From: a virus
IMG/VR virus record: IMGVR_UViG_3300031825_000037
Coordinates: 1-40,135 of that record
DNA: 40,135 bases
Reading direction: 5' to 3' (one strand)
Part shown: positions 3,562 to 36,990 of the stretch, piece after piece
Layout: the number at the start of each line of letters is the position of its first letter
Numbering within the stretch: the stretch's first letter is position 1
Notes under the pieces: generated by a model
What the model saw: the letters and a program-made list of their open reading frames with translations, nothing else
Databases searched by the model: none
Told to the model about the DNA's origin: nothing
Translations under genes and position numbers: made by a program

Positions 3562-4229
3562 GCCGGCGCACCTCCGTTCGGGCTAGAGGTGTGATCGGCC
3601 TGGATCTTTAGCCCCAGCGCCGCCTGGGCAGACTGAGAATGCATCGTCGCGCGCTGCAGGTTCGCCGCCGATTCAGCATCCTTCGAGAAGGCTCTCGCCA
3701 AGACCAGATCCAGCAGGATCGGCACGTAGGTATCGGGCAGCCTAATCGCCTCACTAGAGCTGGTGGTCGCCTCGCTGGGGGAATGCAGCTCCGGCACTAT
3801 GGAGTAGAGGATTTCCAGCCTGGCCGTATCCTTGGCCGGCGGGTAAACGTAGAAGTGCCGAGGGTCGAGGTCATCGAAGGCGAACTGCTCGATGGACTCA
3901 GTTGGCGGCTCTCCATGCCAGCGGCGCCTGGTCGTGTCCAGCATGGCACGGGAAACCTGGGTCACCGCCAGCCCGACAGCCGGTGGGGCCGTATTGCGGA
4001 TGACATCGATCAGGCGGGCTGCCTCTGCAGGGATGCTCTGCCGGGTGCCGCCCTGGCAGGCGACCTCAGAAATAACCGTGTTGGCTGATGGCCGGATATC
4101 AACCACAACCGCGTAGGCCTCGTTGAGCCAATCCAGCAGTTCGGCATTGGTCCAGCGAGTGCCATCCTGGGTGATCTCCTGCAGGATCCTCCTGGCCCTG
4201 GTCAGCAGCTGCCCGACAGTCGTAGCCAC
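3558..4229 (-). CDS. DUF6682-like head-tail adaptor (223 aa)
   Basis: Starts TTVGQLLTRARRILQEITQDGTRW and continues AELLDWLNEAYAVVVDIRP, GGTRQSIPAEAARLIDVIRN, HFYVYPPAKDTARLEILYS and LPDTYVPILLDLVLARAFSKDAE. This succession is the one I associate with the DUF6682 family of phage adaptor proteins (T7 gp11/P22 gp4-like position). The family is expected to sit on the portal ring and connect it to the tail. It lies 3 nt after the stop of the 175-aa gene and overlaps the next gene by 4 nt. No truncation is apparent. Confidence 0.75.
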   Translation of the reverse strand: MATTVGQLLTRARRILQEITQDGTRWTNAELLDWLNEAYAVVVDIRPSANTVISEVACQGGTRQSIPAEAARLIDVIRNTAPPAVGLAVTQVSRAMLDTTRRRWHGEPPTESIEQFAFDDLDPRHFYVYPPAKDTARLEILYSIVPELHSPSEATTSSSEAIRLPDTYVPILLDLVLARAFSKDAESAANLQRATMHSQSAQAALGLKIQADHTSSPNGGAPA

Positions 4230-7136: not shown

Positions 7137-9231
7137 TGAAGGCTCCTAATGCCTGTAGCTGGCCCAGTAGCGACTGGATCTCCAGCAGGATCTTCTGTGT
7201 CTCGGCCTGCGTTTTATCCGCACTGGCCTGTTTCTGCGCCGTTTCGGCCTGGGCCTTGCCCGCCTCCAGCTGCATTTGCTGTTGCGCCTGCTGCGCTTGC
7301 TGCTGGCCCTGCTGCTCGAGTTGAGCCTTGATCGCGCCTTCATCCGGAATCAGGTCCGGCATGTCCAACTGCTCGCTAACGCTACGCAGCAGCTTGGCGC
7401 GCCCCTCGACTCCCAGGATCTGCATATCGATCGGGTTAGCGGTACCGGCCAGGAACTGCTGGCGAGCCTGCTGGGTCTGGTCGCGCAACAGCTGGGCCGT
7501 CGCCCCCATCGGCACGACCTTGCAGTCGCCCTTGATCGACGGGTCGTTGCTGTAGCGCATGTTGTGCAGCCACAGGGCATAGATCACCCGGCGAGTCACG
7601 CCACGGTCTATATGCCGGATCGCATCCTTGATGCCCTTGTTCGCTGACTCGAACAGCATGGACAGGCCGCTGGCCGTGTTTCCGGCGCCACCAACCTTCT
7701 CGTTGCCGTAGGCGTAGCGTGGGATGTTGGTGGCATCGTCCGCGCGCTGCTCCCACATCGAATAGACCTGCATCAGCTCGCCGGCGAGACTGTTCGGTTG
7801 GTAGAAGCGAATGGCGGGCTGCTGAGTGCCGGTACTGGTGCGGTCGCTCTTGGTCCGCCAGCGCTTCATAGGGAAGATCTCGTTGGGATTTTCCTCCGGC
7901 ATCAGTCGGTCGGTAGCGATCTCGATCTGAGGACCACTGGCGAAGGCCATATTGTTGGCCTGGGCCCGGGCGACGGCGCAGCACATATCCTGAATGTCAG
8001 CCATCAGCTCGGGGATTGCGACACCCCAGAAGCTGCCCGGCACCAGCTGGAACGACGCCTTGTGATAGGGTCGCTCGCCCATCGGGTTGCGGTTGATGAC
8101 ACAGCGGATGACATGCCGGCCGACCAGAATGGCGTCGACCTCGTACTCGGCCAGCGGGTCAGGGATCTGCTCAGGCGTCATACCCCACTGCAGGAGCAGC
8201 AGGCCTTGCGCGCTTCCCCAGTAGTGCAGGCCCTCGATGGTCTCGCCGGCATTGTTCAGCCATTCGTGCCGGCGCTCCTCAAGGCGAGCCCGCTCTGTGT
8301 CCGGAGCCAGCCACTCTCGCAGCCCGCCACGACCATGATCGCGCAGAACCTCCTCGAGCTCCTCGTCGTTGTAGCCTGGCACTCCGCGCAAACGGTTCAG
8401 ATCGGCACGGCTGTAGCGCTCACGCTCGATGAGATAAGCGCCGTCATCGATATCGGAGGCATCCGGGCTCGGGTAGATATCGAACGGCGAGACCCTGACG
8501 AATTGCGGCTTGATCTCCTCGACTTCGATCATGTTCCAGCCTTCCCGCCAGGCGAGCTCAGGCACTCGCTGCAGGAGCGGACCACGGATTAACGCGGCTG
8601 GGTAGACGCAGAAGTCGTCAATGAAGCTTTCGAGCGCCTCGTGCCAGCCACCTTCACTCAGCTGGTCATCAATCAGCTGCTCATGGCGATCGGCAACCTT
8701 GCGGGCCTTCGCCTGTACCATCTGGCGCAGCGTCTCCTCCAGCTTCTCCGGATCAAGCTGGGGAGCCTGGGATGGAGCGCCATTCGGAACCAGCTGCATG
8801 CTCTGAGCCTGCTGCGACTGCAACTGCCGGGCAAACTGAGCTAGGTACTCCGGCGGGATATCCGCTACGGGCGTGGGCTCCAACCCCCATGGCCGCCCGC
8901 TAGCCGGCATCAGCACATCACGGATCCAGGCGGCGGCCGCCCTGGTTTTGGTGGTGGTCAGCTTCGGATACAGGGCGCTGCCACCCTCTTCCTCGATAGC
9001 CTTGAGCTTATCCGGGTCGTAGACACCCTTCTGCCGACGGGCGCAGTCCAGCAGGCGAATCTCGATCGGGCGCTTGGCGGTTTTGGCATCCTCCCAGGCG
9101 CGCCGAATATGGGCTGCTAGAGAGCTCTCGATTGCATGCTGCCGCTGCTCCTGCTCGCGGCGCTGCTGTTCAGCCAGCTCTGCCGCCTTCAGATCAGCGG
9201 CCGTTCTGAAGTTCAGCAGGCCCAGGGTCAT
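7030..9231 (-). CDS. Portal protein, P22-like (733 aa)
   Basis: At 733 residues it is close in length to P22 gp1 (725). A helical N-terminus is followed by segments typical of large podovirus portals: TTTKTRAAAAWIRDVLMP, VRVSPFDIYPSPDASDIDDG, PYHKASFQLVPGSFWGVAIP and YGNEKVGGAGNTASGLSMLF. The C-terminal ~100 residues are a Gln/Ala-rich coiled coil (AQQAQQQMQLEAGKAQAETA), corresponding to the portal barrel. It would form the dodecameric DNA-entry vertex and dock terminase. It starts within the ATGA overlap with the 120-aa gene, and its 3' end is overprinted by the 81-aa gene. Confidence 0.88.
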   Translation of the reverse strand: MTLGLLNFRTAADLKAAELAEQQRREQEQRQHAIESSLAAHIRRAWEDAKTAKRPIEIRLLDCARRQKGVYDPDKLKAIEEEGGSALYPKLTTTKTRAAAAWIRDVLMPASGRPWGLEPTPVADIPPEYLAQFARQLQSQQAQSMQLVPNGAPSQAPQLDPEKLEETLRQMVQAKARKVADRHEQLIDDQLSEGGWHEALESFIDDFCVYPAALIRGPLLQRVPELAWREGWNMIEVEEIKPQFVRVSPFDIYPSPDASDIDDGAYLIERERYSRADLNRLRGVPGYNDEELEEVLRDHGRGGLREWLAPDTERARLEERRHEWLNNAGETIEGLHYWGSAQGLLLLQWGMTPEQIPDPLAEYEVDAILVGRHVIRCVINRNPMGERPYHKASFQLVPGSFWGVAIPELMADIQDMCCAVARAQANNMAFASGPQIEIATDRLMPEENPNEIFPMKRWRTKSDRTSTGTQQPAIRFYQPNSLAGELMQVYSMWEQRADDATNIPRYAYGNEKVGGAGNTASGLSMLFESANKGIKDAIRHIDRGVTRRVIYALWLHNMRYSNDPSIKGDCKVVPMGATAQLLRDQTQQARQQFLAGTANPIDMQILGVEGRAKLLRSVSEQLDMPDLIPDEGAIKAQLEQQGQQQAQQAQQQMQLEAGKAQAETAQKQASADKTQAETQKILLEIQSLLGQLQALGAFNAAIGGAVQGAGPAGGQQQLGVAGGQEPAAPGQGV

Positions 9232-13615: not shown

Positions 13616-13792
13616 TCAGAATCTTGTGCGGTCTTTCCCGCCGTCCGCCAAAGGCATCCCCAGCGCCAACGCCTTAATGCATCGGTCTCGCCAATTCAGC
13701 CACGCGCCCGGCCCGGACTTCTCCGAGGAAGCGGCCTGCGCGAGCTGCCGGTGTTTTTCATAACCGCCCCACCGCCGGCTGGGGGCGTCCAG
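13616..13792 (-). pseudogene. Coding-like frame without a normal start (about 58 aa)
   Basis: The minus-strand frame ending at 13616 reads LDAPSRRWGGYEKHRQLAQA, then ASSEKSGPGAWLNWRDRCIK and ALALGMPLADGGKDRTRF. Codon third positions are mostly G or C, as in neighbouring real genes. The frame is open back to a TAG near 13870 but contains no ATG, GTG or TTG before the conserved-looking part; only CTG (for example 13790-13792) is available. It is either a decayed gene remnant or a protein with a non-standard start. A terminator (13848-13871) lies over its upstream extension. No family is recognised. Confidence 0.4.
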
Positions 13793-13847
13793 AATATTCC
13801 CCAGAAGGGACCGCCCTGGCCGCGGATCGCAGCTATCCCCACAAACG

Positions 13848-27469: not shown

Positions 27470-28003
27470 ACACATCCCGGGCCAGCGGGCCGCCTAGGCG
27501 GATATCTGGACGGGGATTAGCCGGAAGTGCCCTGGAGTCAAAAACACCGGCAGCAGGCGGTAAGACTGCCATCAGCTTTGCCCTCCCAGCTTGCTGAGCC
27601 TGCCGACTGGCCCGCGTAACGGGCCATTTCCTCGAAGAGGATGCATCGGAAGTAGTGCGGGGCCTAAGTGGAAAAATATGGCCGCGAAGCAAAGTCGGGG
27701 CAACGTGCGGCAAACACGCCGACCTCAGTAGGCCGCACTACTTCCGATGCAGATGAATGCGCAGGCTGATGCGCGGCGAATGGAAACAACCGGGTGGGTA
27801 GACCTCCTAGGCCGTGATTGGGTTCATGGCTGCTATGAAAAACGGCGCGCCACCTTGAGCCAGAGACAGTGGCGCTGGCCATCTGCATCACCCCTTCCCC
27901 TCCGCACCCATCCAGACAGCCGTTTCCTCCCCACTCATGCGCTTGGTCCCGCAATGAGCGGAGACGGCTGCCTGATGTGTGCGCAAACAGCGAGGTAATC
28001 GAC
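27470..28003 (+). other. Intergenic region with strong secondary structure
   Basis: About 530 nt between two early genes. It holds a hairpin GGCCCG/CGGGCC (27609-27625), the 110-bp inverted-repeat element (27642-27751), and a GCGCCAC/GTGGCGC palindrome with 15-nt loop near 27849-27877. An open frame starting in the right arm (27747-27998) has no ribosome site and I do not call it a gene. Confidence 0.5.
27642..27751. repeat. 110-bp element with perfect 19-bp inverted repeats
   Basis: TGCATCGGAAGTAGTGCGG (27642-27660) is exactly repeated in reverse complement at 27733-27751. Inside lie GTCGG/CCGAC (27694-27723) and CGTG/CACG stems nested within it. It could be a MITE-like insertion or a structured RNA of the pL transcript. 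No clear target-site duplication is seen. Confidence 0.75.
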
Positions 28004-32687: not shown

Positions 32688-33089
32688 TCAAGATATGGCT
32701 CTGGCATTGAGCCGGCCTGGACCGCCAGAGGTTACAACCCGTGTGATCTTGCGCCGGATCGTGCGCGATGGCTCCGTACTCAACGGATCAAAGAAATGTG
32801 CGCCATCCCATGCTAGCCAATGCCTATAGCGCTCTTGGTACACGACATACACAGCACACCAAGGCTCCAGAAAAGCCCCGCCTCGCACCTGCACAACCTG
32901 CTCACCAAATACTGCGGCCATGGCAGCTTTCATCTGTTTAACAGTCATGTGGTGGTTTTTTTGGCTTATCCACTCACCACGTCGCTGAAGCAGATGAGTT
33001 AGCGCTTCATCGAAGCTTCGCCCTGTCAGCATCGCAAATACCGCTACGCCACAGCCGGTCTCATTAACCGCCTGTTTCACCATTTTCAT
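32688..33089 (-). CDS. C39-like cysteine peptidase fold protein (133 aa)
   Basis: Begins KMVKQAVNETGCGVAVFAML and continues TGRSFDEALTHLLQRRGEW. Cys13 in ETGCGVA with an upstream Gln, His90 in YRHWLAWDG and Asp101 in HFFDPLS form the Cys-His-Asp order of C39/papain-like peptidases. Members of this group cut leader peptides or ubiquitin-like tags. Here it stands alone, with no transporter or substrate peptide nearby. It is read on the minus strand within a plus-strand operon, so it is a separate moron-like unit. The ribosome site is weak (ATG 33089 or 33083). Confidence 0.65.
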   Translation of the reverse strand: MKMVKQAVNETGCGVAVFAMLTGRSFDEALTHLLQRRGEWISQKNHHMTVKQMKAAMAAVFGEQVVQVRGGAFLEPWCAVYVVYQERYRHWLAWDGAHFFDPLSTEPSRTIRRKITRVVTSGGPGRLNARAIS

Positions 33090-33204
33090 CGCGCATACCT
33101 ATTTAGACAAATGCAGGCGATGACCATATCCAAACGCAACAACCTAAGCCAGGCATCCAGGCCGGTAAGCGCGCCGTACTGTCTGCATAAATGGACCTAT
33201 TCGC

Positions 33205-35037
33205 ATGACCTTGATGAAATCAGCCTCCATTAGCTTCCGTACTCAATACACCCTGCCGCTCAATGCGCAGGACGAGGAAATCAACGTCGACCTGTTCGCC
33301 GGAGGCGGCGGTGCCAGCACTGGCCTGGAGATGGGACTTGGCCGCCCGGTGCACATCGCCATCAATCACAACCCGGCGGCGATCAGCATGCACCAGGCGA
33401 ACCACCCGGGCGCCCTTCACTTCCAGACTGACGTCTGGCTGGTCGATCCGGTCGAGGCCGTAGCCGGCCGGCGTGTCGGCTGGTTCCATGCCTCTCCCGA
33501 CTGCACCCATCACAGCCAGGCGGCCGGCGGCCAGCCGCGCAAGAAGGAAATCCGCGACCTGTCCTGGGTGGTCATAAAGTGGGCCGGCAAGGTTCGCCCG
33601 CGGGTGATCAGTCTGGAGAACGTGAAGCAGATCCGCCAATGGGGCCCGCTGATCGCCAAACGCTGCAAGCAGACCGGCCGCGTCGTGCGCCTGGACGGAA
33701 CCGTTGCCGCCCCTGGCGAGCACGTCCCACGGCACGAGCAGTTCCTGGTTCCGGATCCTCGGTACAAGGGGCGCACCTGGCGGGGCTTCCTGGCCAGCCT
33801 TGAAGGGTTGGGCTACCAGGTGGAGCATCGAATCCTCAAGGCCTGCGACTACGGCGCGCCTACCAGCAGGGAGCGATTGTTCCTGCTGGCCCGGCGCGAC
33901 GGTGAGCCCATTGTCTGGCCGGAGCCGACCCACGCCGAGAAGCCGGCCAAGGGGAAGAAGCCCTACCGTACCGCCGCTGAGTGCATCGACTGGAGCATCC
34001 CCAGCCAAAGCATCTTCGACCGCAAGAAGCCGCTCGCCGAGGCCACCCTGCGCCGGATAGCCAAGGGCATTCAGCGCGAGGTGATCGAGCGGGCAAAGCC
34101 CTTCATCGTGCAGACGGGATATGGGGAGCGGCCCGGCCAATCGCCGAGGGTTCCGAGCCTCGACAAGCCCCTCGGGACAGTGGTCGCTGGCGGGGTCAAG
34201 CACGCACTGGTATCCCCTCACCTGGTGAAGTTCCGATTCAACGAGGGAGGCCTGCCGCTGGATCAACCGCTGCCGACCATCACCAGCGGCGGCAATTACA
34301 AGCGGCCGGCGGGCGCGGCCCATGCCATGGGCTTGGCCACCGCTTTCCTGGCACAGGCCAACGGAGGATTCAACACCACCCACTCCAAGGGTCTGGACGA
34401 GCCCATGACCACGGTGACCAACACCGGCAGCCAGCAGCAGCTAGTGACGGCCAGCCTGCTGCATCTCCGCGGAAACTGCGACTCTCGCCCGATTGGCGAG
34501 CCACTGCAGACCGTTAGCGCTGGCGGCCAGCACCACGGCCTAGTGACGGCGTTCTTGTCGCGCCAGTTTGGAGGAAGCGTAGGGCAAGGCTGCGACGAAC
34601 CTGCGCATACGGTCACGGCTGGCGGAGGTGGAAAGACGGCCTTGGTTGAGTGCAGCCTATCGCCGACGGTGGAGGAAGGCGCCCTGCGCTGTGCGGCGTT
34701 CCTGATGAAGTACCACGGCATCGGGGAGAACATCATCGGTATGGATGATCCGGTCAGCACCATCACCACAAAGGACCGCCTCGCCCTGGTTACCGTCTGG
34801 ATTGGAGGAGACCCCTATGTGATCGTCGACATCTTCCTTCGGATGCTACAGCCGCATGAGCTGTACCGGGCCCAGGGATTTCCCCCGAACTACATCATCG
34901 ACTGCGGGCATGACGGGCGCCGGTTCACGAAATCGGAGCAGGTCCACATGTGCGGGAACAGCGTCAGTCCGCCGCCGATGGCCGCGATCGCGCGGGCGAA
35001 TGATCCGTGGAGGGAGCGTCAGGCCATTGCGGCCTGA
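33205..35037 (+). CDS. C5-cytosine DNA methyltransferase (610 aa)
   Basis: Motif I is VDLFAGGGGASTG (F31); motif IV is ASPDCTHHSQ with the catalytic Cys100, carrying SPDC in place of the usual PPCQ; motif VI is SLENV (E138); motif VIII is APTSRERLF. At least five repeats of 'D/E-x-P-x-x-T-V/I-T-x-x-G' (for example LPTITSGG, MTTVTNTG, LQTVSAGG, AHTVTAGG) span residues ~310-530, in the target-recognition region. The C-terminus has the motif X NSVSPPPM. It would protect phage DNA from host restriction or mark it. F116-like Pseudomonas phages are known to carry such enzymes. Confidence 0.9.
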   Translation: MTLMKSASISFRTQYTLPLNAQDEEINVDLFAGGGGASTGLEMGLGRPVHIAINHNPAAISMHQANHPGALHFQTDVWLVDPVEAVAGRRVGWFHASPDCTHHSQAAGGQPRKKEIRDLSWVVIKWAGKVRPRVISLENVKQIRQWGPLIAKRCKQTGRVVRLDGTVAAPGEHVPRHEQFLVPDPRYKGRTWRGFLASLEGLGYQVEHRILKACDYGAPTSRERLFLLARRDGEPIVWPEPTHAEKPAKGKKPYRTAAECIDWSIPSQSIFDRKKPLAEATLRRIAKGIQREVIERAKPFIVQTGYGERPGQSPRVPSLDKPLGTVVAGGVKHALVSPHLVKFRFNEGGLPLDQPLPTITSGGNYKRPAGAAHAMGLATAFLAQANGGFNTTHSKGLDEPMTTVTNTGSQQQLVTASLLHLRGNCDSRPIGEPLQTVSAGGQHHGLVTAFLSRQFGGSVGQGCDEPAHTVTAGGGGKTALVECSLSPTVEEGALRCAAFLMKYHGIGENIIGMDDPVSTITTKDRLALVTVWIGGDPYVIVDIFLRMLQPHELYRAQGFPPNYIIDCGHDGRRFTKSEQVHMCGNSVSPPPMAAIARANDPWRERQAIAA

Positions 35038-35048
35038 CTGAGATCAGC

Positions 35049-35252
35049 CTATTTGACGTACTGCAGCAGGTAATCAACTGCCTCTGATGAGCCAACCTTG
35101 TGTTTGGCTCCAACCCATACATATGGATTGTTGCTGAAGATTCCAGCCTTGGCCTTCTCGGCAATCGCTGACAGGTCAACTCCGGCAGCCTTTGCCTCCG
35201 ATAGGAGCGCTGCTGCAGCCTGCTCCAAGGCTATCTCGCGATCAGTTGCCAT
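35049..35252 (-). CDS. Small partner of the ART-like protein (67 aa)
   Basis: ATG 35252 follows AGGAGA. The product has a helical Ala-rich first half (ATDREIALEQAAAALLSEAK, then AAGVDLSAIAEKAKAG) and a second half IFSNNPYVWVGAKHKVGSSE, AVDYLLQYVK. It starts 9 nt after the stop of the ADP-ribosyltransferase-like gene in the same direction. Gene order toxin-like then small partner is compatible with an immunity or antitoxin protein. The family is unknown to me. Confidence 0.55.
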   Translation of the reverse strand: MATDREIALEQAAAALLSEAKAAGVDLSAIAEKAKAGIFSNNPYVWVGAKHKVGSSEAVDYLLQYVK

Positions 35253-35261
35253 ACATCTCTC

Positions 35262-35696
35262 CTACATCCAATCGGGATTTACAGGTTCACACGCGATTAC
35301 TACAGACTGCGGGATTGGCCCACAGTCTACTGATCGGATAGAAACCTCCATTTCACCGGGGTAGTGCGGGTCAGCATCCTCGATGGCTACCACTCCCTCC
35401 TGAGCAAATAGCGACTCATCGAGAATATAAATAACTCCCTCTGACATATTCCCAGAGGTGGCGAAGTATTTTGCTCGCTCGTAATCCCGGGTAGTGGAAA
35501 TCCAGCAGCCCCCCCACTTCCCGCTTTCCAGATGATGGGCGCGGACCGCATTTTTCTCAGACTCACCATAAGTGAATCTCCCGTCATACGTGATGGTTCC
35601 ATCATGTATAGGGGCAACTTCGGAAAGATTCCCCTTCGGCCGAATCTCCCCCTGATTTGCCTTATGGGTTTGTAGGCATTCCCCCCTGTAAAGCAT
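35262..35696 (-). CDS. ADP-ribosyltransferase-like protein (144 aa)
   Basis: I chose ATG 35696 because AGGAGGG stands 4-5 nt upstream; the frame upstream lies over a plus-strand gene region and reads non-coding. LYRGEC (R4) begins the chain, ISTTRDYERAKYFA (67-80) is the STT-type segment and YPGEMEVSI (E115-x-E117) the C-terminal ExE, which together are the R-S-E signature of arginine-type mono-ADP-ribosyltransferases. GVIYILDESLF (87-97) is a typical strand. It is a cytosolic protein without signal peptide, so it would modify a host or phage target. With its 67-aa partner it may be a toxin-antitoxin or exclusion pair. Confidence 0.65.
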   Translation of the reverse strand: MLYRGECLQTHKANQGEIRPKGNLSEVAPIHDGTITYDGRFTYGESEKNAVRAHHLESGKWGGCWISTTRDYERAKYFATSGNMSEGVIYILDESLFAQEGVVAIEDADPHYPGEMEVSIRSVDCGPIPQSVVIACEPVNPDWM

Positions 35697-35769
35697 ACAC
35701 CCTCCTAATTCCGCCCATGCCGGGCTCTCCATTAATACCCCGAATCCACGCCAATGGCGAGGAGCCACT

Positions 35770-35832
35770 ATGCCTACAGAAAACCATACCTCCCTTATCC
35801 AACCGGTGCCAGTTGAGCGCGACAGCGAATGA
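35770..35832 (+). CDS. Very short frame upstream of Cys4 protein (20 aa)
   Basis: ATG 35770 follows GGCGAGGAG and its stop overlaps the next ATG by 4 nt (ATGA). It encodes PTENHTSLIQPVPVERDSE. The ribosome site and coupling support it as translated, perhaps as a leader or small protein. Coding evidence is weak because of size. Confidence 0.35.
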   Translation: MPTENHTSLIQPVPVERDSE

Positions 35833-35933
35833 ACCGCCCCACCTATTGCCGCCGGACCATGCTCCGGATCGGCCAATGCAAATGCCTGACCTGCCGGCCG
35901 ATCAAGCCGGAGAAGGAGAAAGAACGTGAGTGA
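35829..35933 (+). CDS. Tiny Cys-rich protein (34 aa)
   Basis: ATG 35829 overlaps the previous stop; its end overlaps the next start by 8 nt. The product NRPTYCRRTMLRIGQCKCLT, then CRPIKPEKEKERE has four Cys (C6-x9-C16-x-C18-x2-C21, counting the initiator Met) that could hold one zinc ion. Tiny proteins with 'TMLRIGQCxCxxC' are familiar from Pseudomonas prophages. No function is known. Confidence 0.55.
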   Translation: MNRPTYCRRTMLRIGQCKCLTCRPIKPEKEKERE

Positions 35934-36990
35934 CAATGTCGAACTGCTGCGCTGCCCGTTCTGCGGTAGCGCTCCGAAAAAGGTAAAGACCAGCCTTGGT
36001 GAGAGATTTTGGTACGCGGATGAGGTTATGTACGTCTGTACCGGCTGCAGGTGCTCTCGTGGCGCACGAGGCGATACAAGCAATCCGGGATACGCCGACA
36101 ACTCTACCGTAGAGCGTCGCGCGCTTGAGGCATGGAACACCAGAGCCGCCCTCTCCCAGCAGCCTACCGATGCAATGCTCGATGAAATGCGTCGTCGCGG
36201 GTTATCTATCGACGGAGATAACGCCTACAAGCGCGACCTAATCGACTGCATCATTGGGGCGCTGGTATGCGGGAAACAGAACACGAATCCACCGCCTGCA
36301 GGCCATTGGGCGCAGCAGTTTTGGGAGATTGGTCGAGCTGACGGCGAGATTCAGGAGGGGTACCCCATCCCTTCCGCGCCGGCACCGGCAGCACCGGCAG
36401 AGCAGGAGCCGATGGTGTGGATCAGCATCGAGGACCGTATACCGCATGACAATCAGCCGGTTTGGTGCCACGGCACATACGATGGCCAGCATGCACCGTG
36501 CGGCTTCGAGGGATTGCATCGTCATGGCAGATGGGTTGCCCTGAACAACGGCGACTATATCGATGGAGGTTATGGTGATGACTATGAGGCGGTAGTCACC
36601 CACTGGATGCCCCTGCCTGCTGCGCCCGGAGCTATACCGCCCGCCGCCGAGCAGCCGGAAGCACCTGGACTTCCGGAGCTATTGATCGCGCTTGGCTGTG
36701 CCGGCATTGCAGTTTCTGGCGGAACGCATGGTGATCCGTGGCAGATCACGCTACCCATTGCAGAGCAACCGGACACCTTGGGGGCGCTACAGGCATTTAC
36801 TGCGGCTGACGGGCGAGAAGCGTTCGAGGCCATGTGTCGCGAACAATTCAGAGATATCACACGTGATGAACGTCCTGACCCGCCGCTGGCCTGGGGCTAT
36901 GCCAATAGCCTGACGCATGATCGGTGGTGCGGTTGGTCTTCCGCATGCAGGCACCTCCGCAAGGCCATGCTGGGCAAGGAGGCCGTATGA
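35926..36990 (+). CDS. Lar-type zinc ribbon plus DUF551 composite protein (354 aa)
   Basis: GTG 35926 follows AAGGAGAAAG. Residues 8-15 (LRCPFCGS) with a second Cys pair at YVCTGCRCS and the ending AWNTRA (~68-73) form the Lar restriction-alleviation zinc ribbon. At ~163-232, VWISIEDRIPHDNQPVWCHG, then VVTHWMPLP is DUF551. A third part (~300-350; EAFEAMCREQFRDI, then WGYANSLTHDRWCGWSSACR) resembles other early phage proteins. Pro/Ala linkers separate them. Lar relieves EcoKI-type restriction in Rac; here the role would fit with the methyltransferase upstream. Confidence 0.8.
   Translation: MSDNVELLRCPFCGSAPKKVKTSLGERFWYADEVMYVCTGCRCSRGARGDTSNPGYADNSTVERRALEAWNTRAALSQQPTDAMLDEMRRRGLSIDGDNAYKRDLIDCIIGALVCGKQNTNPPPAGHWAQQFWEIGRADGEIQEGYPIPSAPAPAAPAEQEPMVWISIEDRIPHDNQPVWCHGTYDGQHAPCGFEGLHRHGRWVALNNGDYIDGGYGDDYEAVVTHWMPLPAAPGAIPPAAEQPEAPGLPELLIALGCAGIAVSGGTHGDPWQITLPIAEQPDTLGALQAFTAADGREAFEAMCREQFRDITRDERPDPPLAWGYANSLTHDRWCGWSSACRHLRKAMLGKEAV

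Follow-up and report, generated by a model that had tools for sequence, protein, structure and literature searches.

What an ADP-ribosyltransferase (ART) gene lying antisense to a phage's early operon is for, and whether the small gene behind it is its partner, are the questions raised by a locus in IMG/VR virus record IMGVR_UViG_3300031825_000037. The stretch studied (40,135 nucleotides, hereafter the window) is the entire record. An earlier note had described here an ART-like moron of 144 amino acids followed by a 67 amino acid-long protein, and had suggested a toxin-antitoxin pair or a conversion factor. The reading favoured here, at slightly better than even chances, is that the ART is one payload of an antisense island of genes tagged by a common DNA leader and located beside a DNA methyltransferase gene, and that it probably acts in the lysogen against competing phages. 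The two parts of this reading differ in strength: the leader-tagged accessory island is well supported, while the anti-phage role inferred for the ART has about even chances.

The ART gene occupies positions 35262–35696 of the minus strand and starts with ATG. Its product matches the NarE family of Pfam (PF21641) from the first to the last of the 120 model positions (E 2.5e-38; 131.5 bits for a cut-off of 27). It also has a full-length match (E 1.8e-38) to PDB entry 2kxi, which we take to be the NarE structure. The R-S-ExE residues are R4 (codon 35687–35685), S67 (35498–35496) and E115-M-E117 (35354–35352 and 35348–35346 for the two glutamates). As they fall within these full-length matches, the R-S-E pattern is not a chance resemblance. 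R4, S67 and E117 are invariant in an alignment of eight family members (the window ART, one from another phage, two from betaproteobacterial records and four from further genomes). Cysteines C64 and C125 align with two cysteines of NarE, presumably its iron ligands, and are not kept in more distant members. An AlphaFold2 model computed from a two-row alignment had a pLDDT of 31.5; an ART-core fold is nevertheless very likely from the homology to the solved 2kxi structure. R4 corresponds in the alignment to R7 of NarE, and replacing R7 by lysine makes NarE inactive (PMC4440719). The ART-like nature claimed in the earlier note is thus confirmed with catalytic residues intact, and assignment of the protein to the NarE-family ADP-ribosyltransferases, predicted from homology, is near certain. 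It shares with NarE (NMB1343), the mono-ADP-ribosyltransferase of Neisseria meningitidis, homology over the full length, the positions of R, S and ExE, and the two aligned cysteines. It differs in being encoded by a phage, within an accessory island and downstream of a phage leader. As an enzyme, in short, the ART is a typical member of the NarE family; what is unusual is its setting.

The family is rare. Scanning genomes with the two-row ART alignment returned a single locus, in Pandoraea, and members were present in 2 of 369 sampled genomes of the class to which Pandoraea belongs and in 4 of 399 of its order, the Pandoraea query genome being counted in both samples. Neisseria sequences were among the ART matches, and family members are scattered among environmental bacteria. 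No close relative was found in viral contigs searched with peptides of the ART itself, nor in phage records. An unannotated NarE-family ART was also seen at positions 7992–8468 of a Cupriavidus malaysiensis plasmid (NZ_CP017756.1), a record that encodes in addition an error-prone DNA polymerase and a DNA cytosine methyltransferase.

The genes flanking the pair are both on the plus strand: a C-5 cytosine DNA methyltransferase (33205–35037), which belongs to the plus-strand operon and converges with the ART pair, and an open reading frame (ORF) at 35926–36990. The GC content is about 0.52 between 35000 and 35750 and 0.59–0.67 in the adjoining DNA. A Shine-Dalgarno sequence (AGGAGG, 35706–35701) precedes the ART start codon by 4 nt. 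The 67-codon gene (35049–35252, minus strand, ATG start), a relative of phrog_31739 and recurring cargo of the island, begins 9 nt downstream of the ART and has its Shine-Dalgarno sequence GGAGA directly behind the ART stop codon (TAGgagagatgtATG). The layout of two minus-strand ORFs, their ribosome sites, their antisense direction and their higher AT content all stood as first described. So did the designation of the ART as a moron: it runs counter to the surrounding operon, differs in base composition and has predicted expression signals of its own, the traits of a prophage moron or accessory cassette. The same arrangement bears on a role in the lytic cycle. T4 Alt and Mod are phage-encoded ARTs of host takeover, which makes takeover an established use of such enzymes. 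The window ART, however, is of another family, runs antisense to the early operon and lies outside it behind the leader of accessory genes, and a host-takeover function is improbable.

The DNA preceding the ART start is similar to the leader found in front of relatives of the 67 amino acid-long protein. The leader is about 70 nt long and consists of a promoter-like part, a hairpin and then a Shine-Dalgarno sequence. An exact search for its core yielded at least 120 viral contigs. A set of 91 non-redundant leaders is conserved from about 46 nt before the core down to the GGAG; the core is fixed by the search, and the conservation of its flanks is independent of it. The motif TGG[CA]NN-17 nt-TA[TG]NNN is present in 78 of the 91 leaders, with 0.5 expected from shuffled sequences, and its spacing looks like that of a promoter. 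The five-pair hairpin downstream of it is preserved; both arms show some substitutions, and several pairs are G-U. Because this alignment had been fitted to the hairpin, with seeds selected for a fixed stem, the covariation is only suggestive. Among the annotated records that bear the leader, 16 of 18 are Pseudomonas phages and the remaining two are metagenome phages. No Rfam family covers the leader, and no description of it was found in open-access papers (subscription papers were not covered); as far as that literature shows, the leader-tagged setting is undescribed. The closest comparison is with SAS/ESAS of cluster K mycobacteriophages, short sequences that recur where some of the phage genes start and that in part contain inverted repeats (PMC3203893). 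The SAS is a 13 bp sequence, GGGATAGGAGCCC (PMC3203893). The likeness is limited to the position at gene starts: the leader has a different consensus, is some 70 nt long, includes a 17-nt spacing like that of promoters, and tags accessory genes of Pseudomonas-type phages that are antisense and exchangeable.

A covariance model (R1) was built from 33 leaders, the window excluded. Its top match in the window is at 35701–35771 of the minus strand (29.3 bits, E 6.4e-7; runner-up E 0.016), within a leader copy that the model and the alignments place at 35697–35771, ending at the ART Shine-Dalgarno sequence. A candidate promoter with the 17-nt spacing of the leader signature (TGGCAC-17 nt-TATGGT, 35786–35811, minus strand) is located 90 nt before the ART start codon. 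It could be there by chance, as five matches to such a signature occur in the window for 3.5 expected. R1 also finds extra leader copies in the phages already known to carry one, mostly directly before start codons, so that tagged genes can follow one another in a series. In the loci numbered L002 to L156 there are often several leader-tagged genes per phage, mostly opposite to the surrounding genes. In Pseudomonas phage phiAH14a (L154) a leader was noted at 4001–4037; the one gene annotated immediately downstream of it lies on the opposite strand. Leader positions may help to revise the annotation of such phages.

In related phages the methyltransferase gene marks where the island lies. Among loci whose fetched DNA includes a relative of the window's cytosine methyltransferase, the cargo is on the opposite strand to that gene in 45 of 45 pairs (41 loci), as it is in the window. 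It is mostly divergent from the methyltransferase; the window and one other locus (L139) have a convergent cargo gene. The leader-fronted proteins are small and diverse: 121 distinct sequences (median 84 amino acids) form at least 66 unrelated clusters, spread over more than 100 contigs of Pseudomonas-type phages, and for 116 of the 121 the start codon lies 5–8 nt behind the GGAG. Several match PADLOC models of anti-phage defence: PD-T7-5 in two loci (L114 and L048, E about 1e-115), TIR-TM in two (L067, E 3e-58; L076, E 5e-53), PDC-S31/DUF2971 in one (L107, E 3e-37) and, weakly, a PD-T7-4-like gene in another (L078, E 1e-6). A putAbiC/AbiP-like gene is the second gene behind the leader in L136, following a leader-fronted one. 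PD-T7-5, TIR-TM, PDC-S31 and AbiP-like genes thus occur in related islands, although a control set also gave matches (see below). Like the window ART, they are carried in leader-tagged islands of this type, in phages related to that of the window; as proteins they are unrelated to the ART.

Two further NarE-type ARTs in leader-bearing phage islands support the island reading, although the family is rare in the genomes sampled. The first (L145, IMGVR_UViG_2806310831_000002; PF21641 E 2.3e-16, 23% identity to the window ART) adjoins the methyltransferase gene; the next gene, for a GNAT acetyltransferase, has a weak copy of the leader in front of it. The second (L158, IMGVR_UViG_3300031112_000253) is 58% identical to the first; a small gene with a leader precedes it by about 230 nt, and a gene that by eye resembles an adenine methyltransferase is on the opposite strand. 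Neither is directly behind a leader.

Whether the 67 amino acid-long protein is an antitoxin to the ART was judged from the neighbourhoods of both families. Its gene has no leader copy of its own in the window and begins 9 nt behind the ART, and is therefore probably co-transcribed with it. This small same-strand partner at short distance is what suggested a toxin-antitoxin pair, and ART toxins with dedicated antitoxins exist, as in the anti-phage system DarTG. CmdTAC is another in which an ART effector directed against phage is accompanied by an antitoxin (PMC11618068). The protein also has a very weak match to a CcdA-like profile (E 0.097). Its relatives, however, found in 11 viral contigs, stand behind upstream genes that vary (membrane proteins, a PIN-like protein and others) and are not ARTs, and most have a leader copy directly before their own start codon. 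A profile of the family detected no member at the other NarE-type loci read (about seven, bacterial and phage, among them L145 and L158). The predicted structure has three helices (pLDDT 89), and for it a fold search gave no significant match. The pairing suggested in the earlier note is thus not supported: linkage of the two genes is not conserved. A dedicated antitoxin is unlikely, because the relatives lie beside unrelated genes, carry their own leaders and are absent from the other NarE-type loci, and the toxin-antitoxin explanation as a whole retains little probability. The 67-codon gene is better understood as another cargo of the same island, probably sharing one transcript with the ART by coincidence. 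We consider a defence gene more likely than half of a toxin-antitoxin pair for the ART, because the leader fronts at least 66 unrelated accessory genes, some of which are anti-virus defences. What the ART has in common with CmdTAC and DarTG is the proposed use of an ADP-ribosyltransferase effector against phage; they possess dedicated antitoxins, whereas the window ART has no conserved partner, and no sequence relation to either was found in the searches made.

The closest characterised relative of the ART affects human cells to which it is applied externally (PMC4440719), and a phage-borne enzyme could similarly be a lysogenic-conversion factor directed at a eukaryote (an amoeba, a plant or an animal cell), like the effect reported for NarE on epithelial cells. 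The ART is a single-domain protein, though, and no secretion signal, carrier or delivery domain was recognised in its 144 amino acids. Small proteins of the cell interior, membrane proteins and defence functions are what islands of this type otherwise encode, and the members of its family are scattered in environmental bacteria. A conversion factor of this kind is accordingly unlikely; the leader-tagged setting speaks for a function within the lysogenic cell, directed most likely at other phages.

Several points weigh against the reading of the ART as an anti-phage payload of the island. The leader copy at the ART is about 7 nt short in the promoter spacer relative to the consensus, its hairpin is out of register so that the consensus hairpin is not formed, and its RNA folds no better than shuffled sequence. 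The shortened spacer and missing hairpin would also suit a decaying or unexpressed passenger gene, but the frame is open over its full length, all catalytic residues are present and the Shine-Dalgarno sequence is strong, which leaves this explanation very improbable. Most of the leader-fronted genes have no assigned function, and for any single gene an argument from association is weak. PADLOC matches were also obtained in the control set (70 ORFs of the same loci). At least one of these (L048) is itself leader-fronted and several are ordinary methyltransferases; because of this composition of the control set, it is not established that the cargo is richer in defence genes than its surroundings. 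The ART matches no PADLOC model, and no known defence gene was found beside it within the window. Its activity, acceptor, expression in the lysogen and anti-phage role are all inferred, and the existing work on NarE concerns a protein active on human cells (PMC4440719).

The favoured reading of the ART as an island payload would work as follows. Temperate Pseudomonas-type phages would carry the leader-tagged island antisense to the early operon, beside a DNA methyltransferase gene. Inside the lysogen the ART would function as a NarE-type mono-ADP-ribosyltransferase, splitting NAD+ and placing ADP-ribose on a bacterial or phage component, possibly a protein arginine if it behaves like NarE. The modification might hamper a competing phage or shut down the infected cell. 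A wider proposal is tentative and, in our estimate, rather doubtful: the islands would form an exchangeable, largely anti-phage antisense arsenal in which one promoter-hairpin-Shine-Dalgarno leader provides like expression, NarE-type ARTs would be recurrent effectors of it, and the meningococcal enzyme would descend, in bacteria, from phage-defence genes of this kind. If the leader marks a common regulon, one motif is enough to retrieve dozens of small, as yet uncharacterised phage proteins that probably act upon the host or upon competing phages. For the ART, this would also suggest why the NarE family exists, in terms of a function inside bacterial cells; the family has so far been studied for its action on human cells.

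Two other features of the window were recorded. An antisense ORF of 133 codons (32688–33089, minus strand), divergent from the methyltransferase gene and peptidase-like by eye, is possibly a second accessory gene; a TGGC-17-TAT signature lies upstream of it (33126–33151), without a match to the leader. The Proteo-phage-1 RNA (RF03044) occurs twice, at 13743–13825 on the minus strand and at 27476–27555 on the plus strand.
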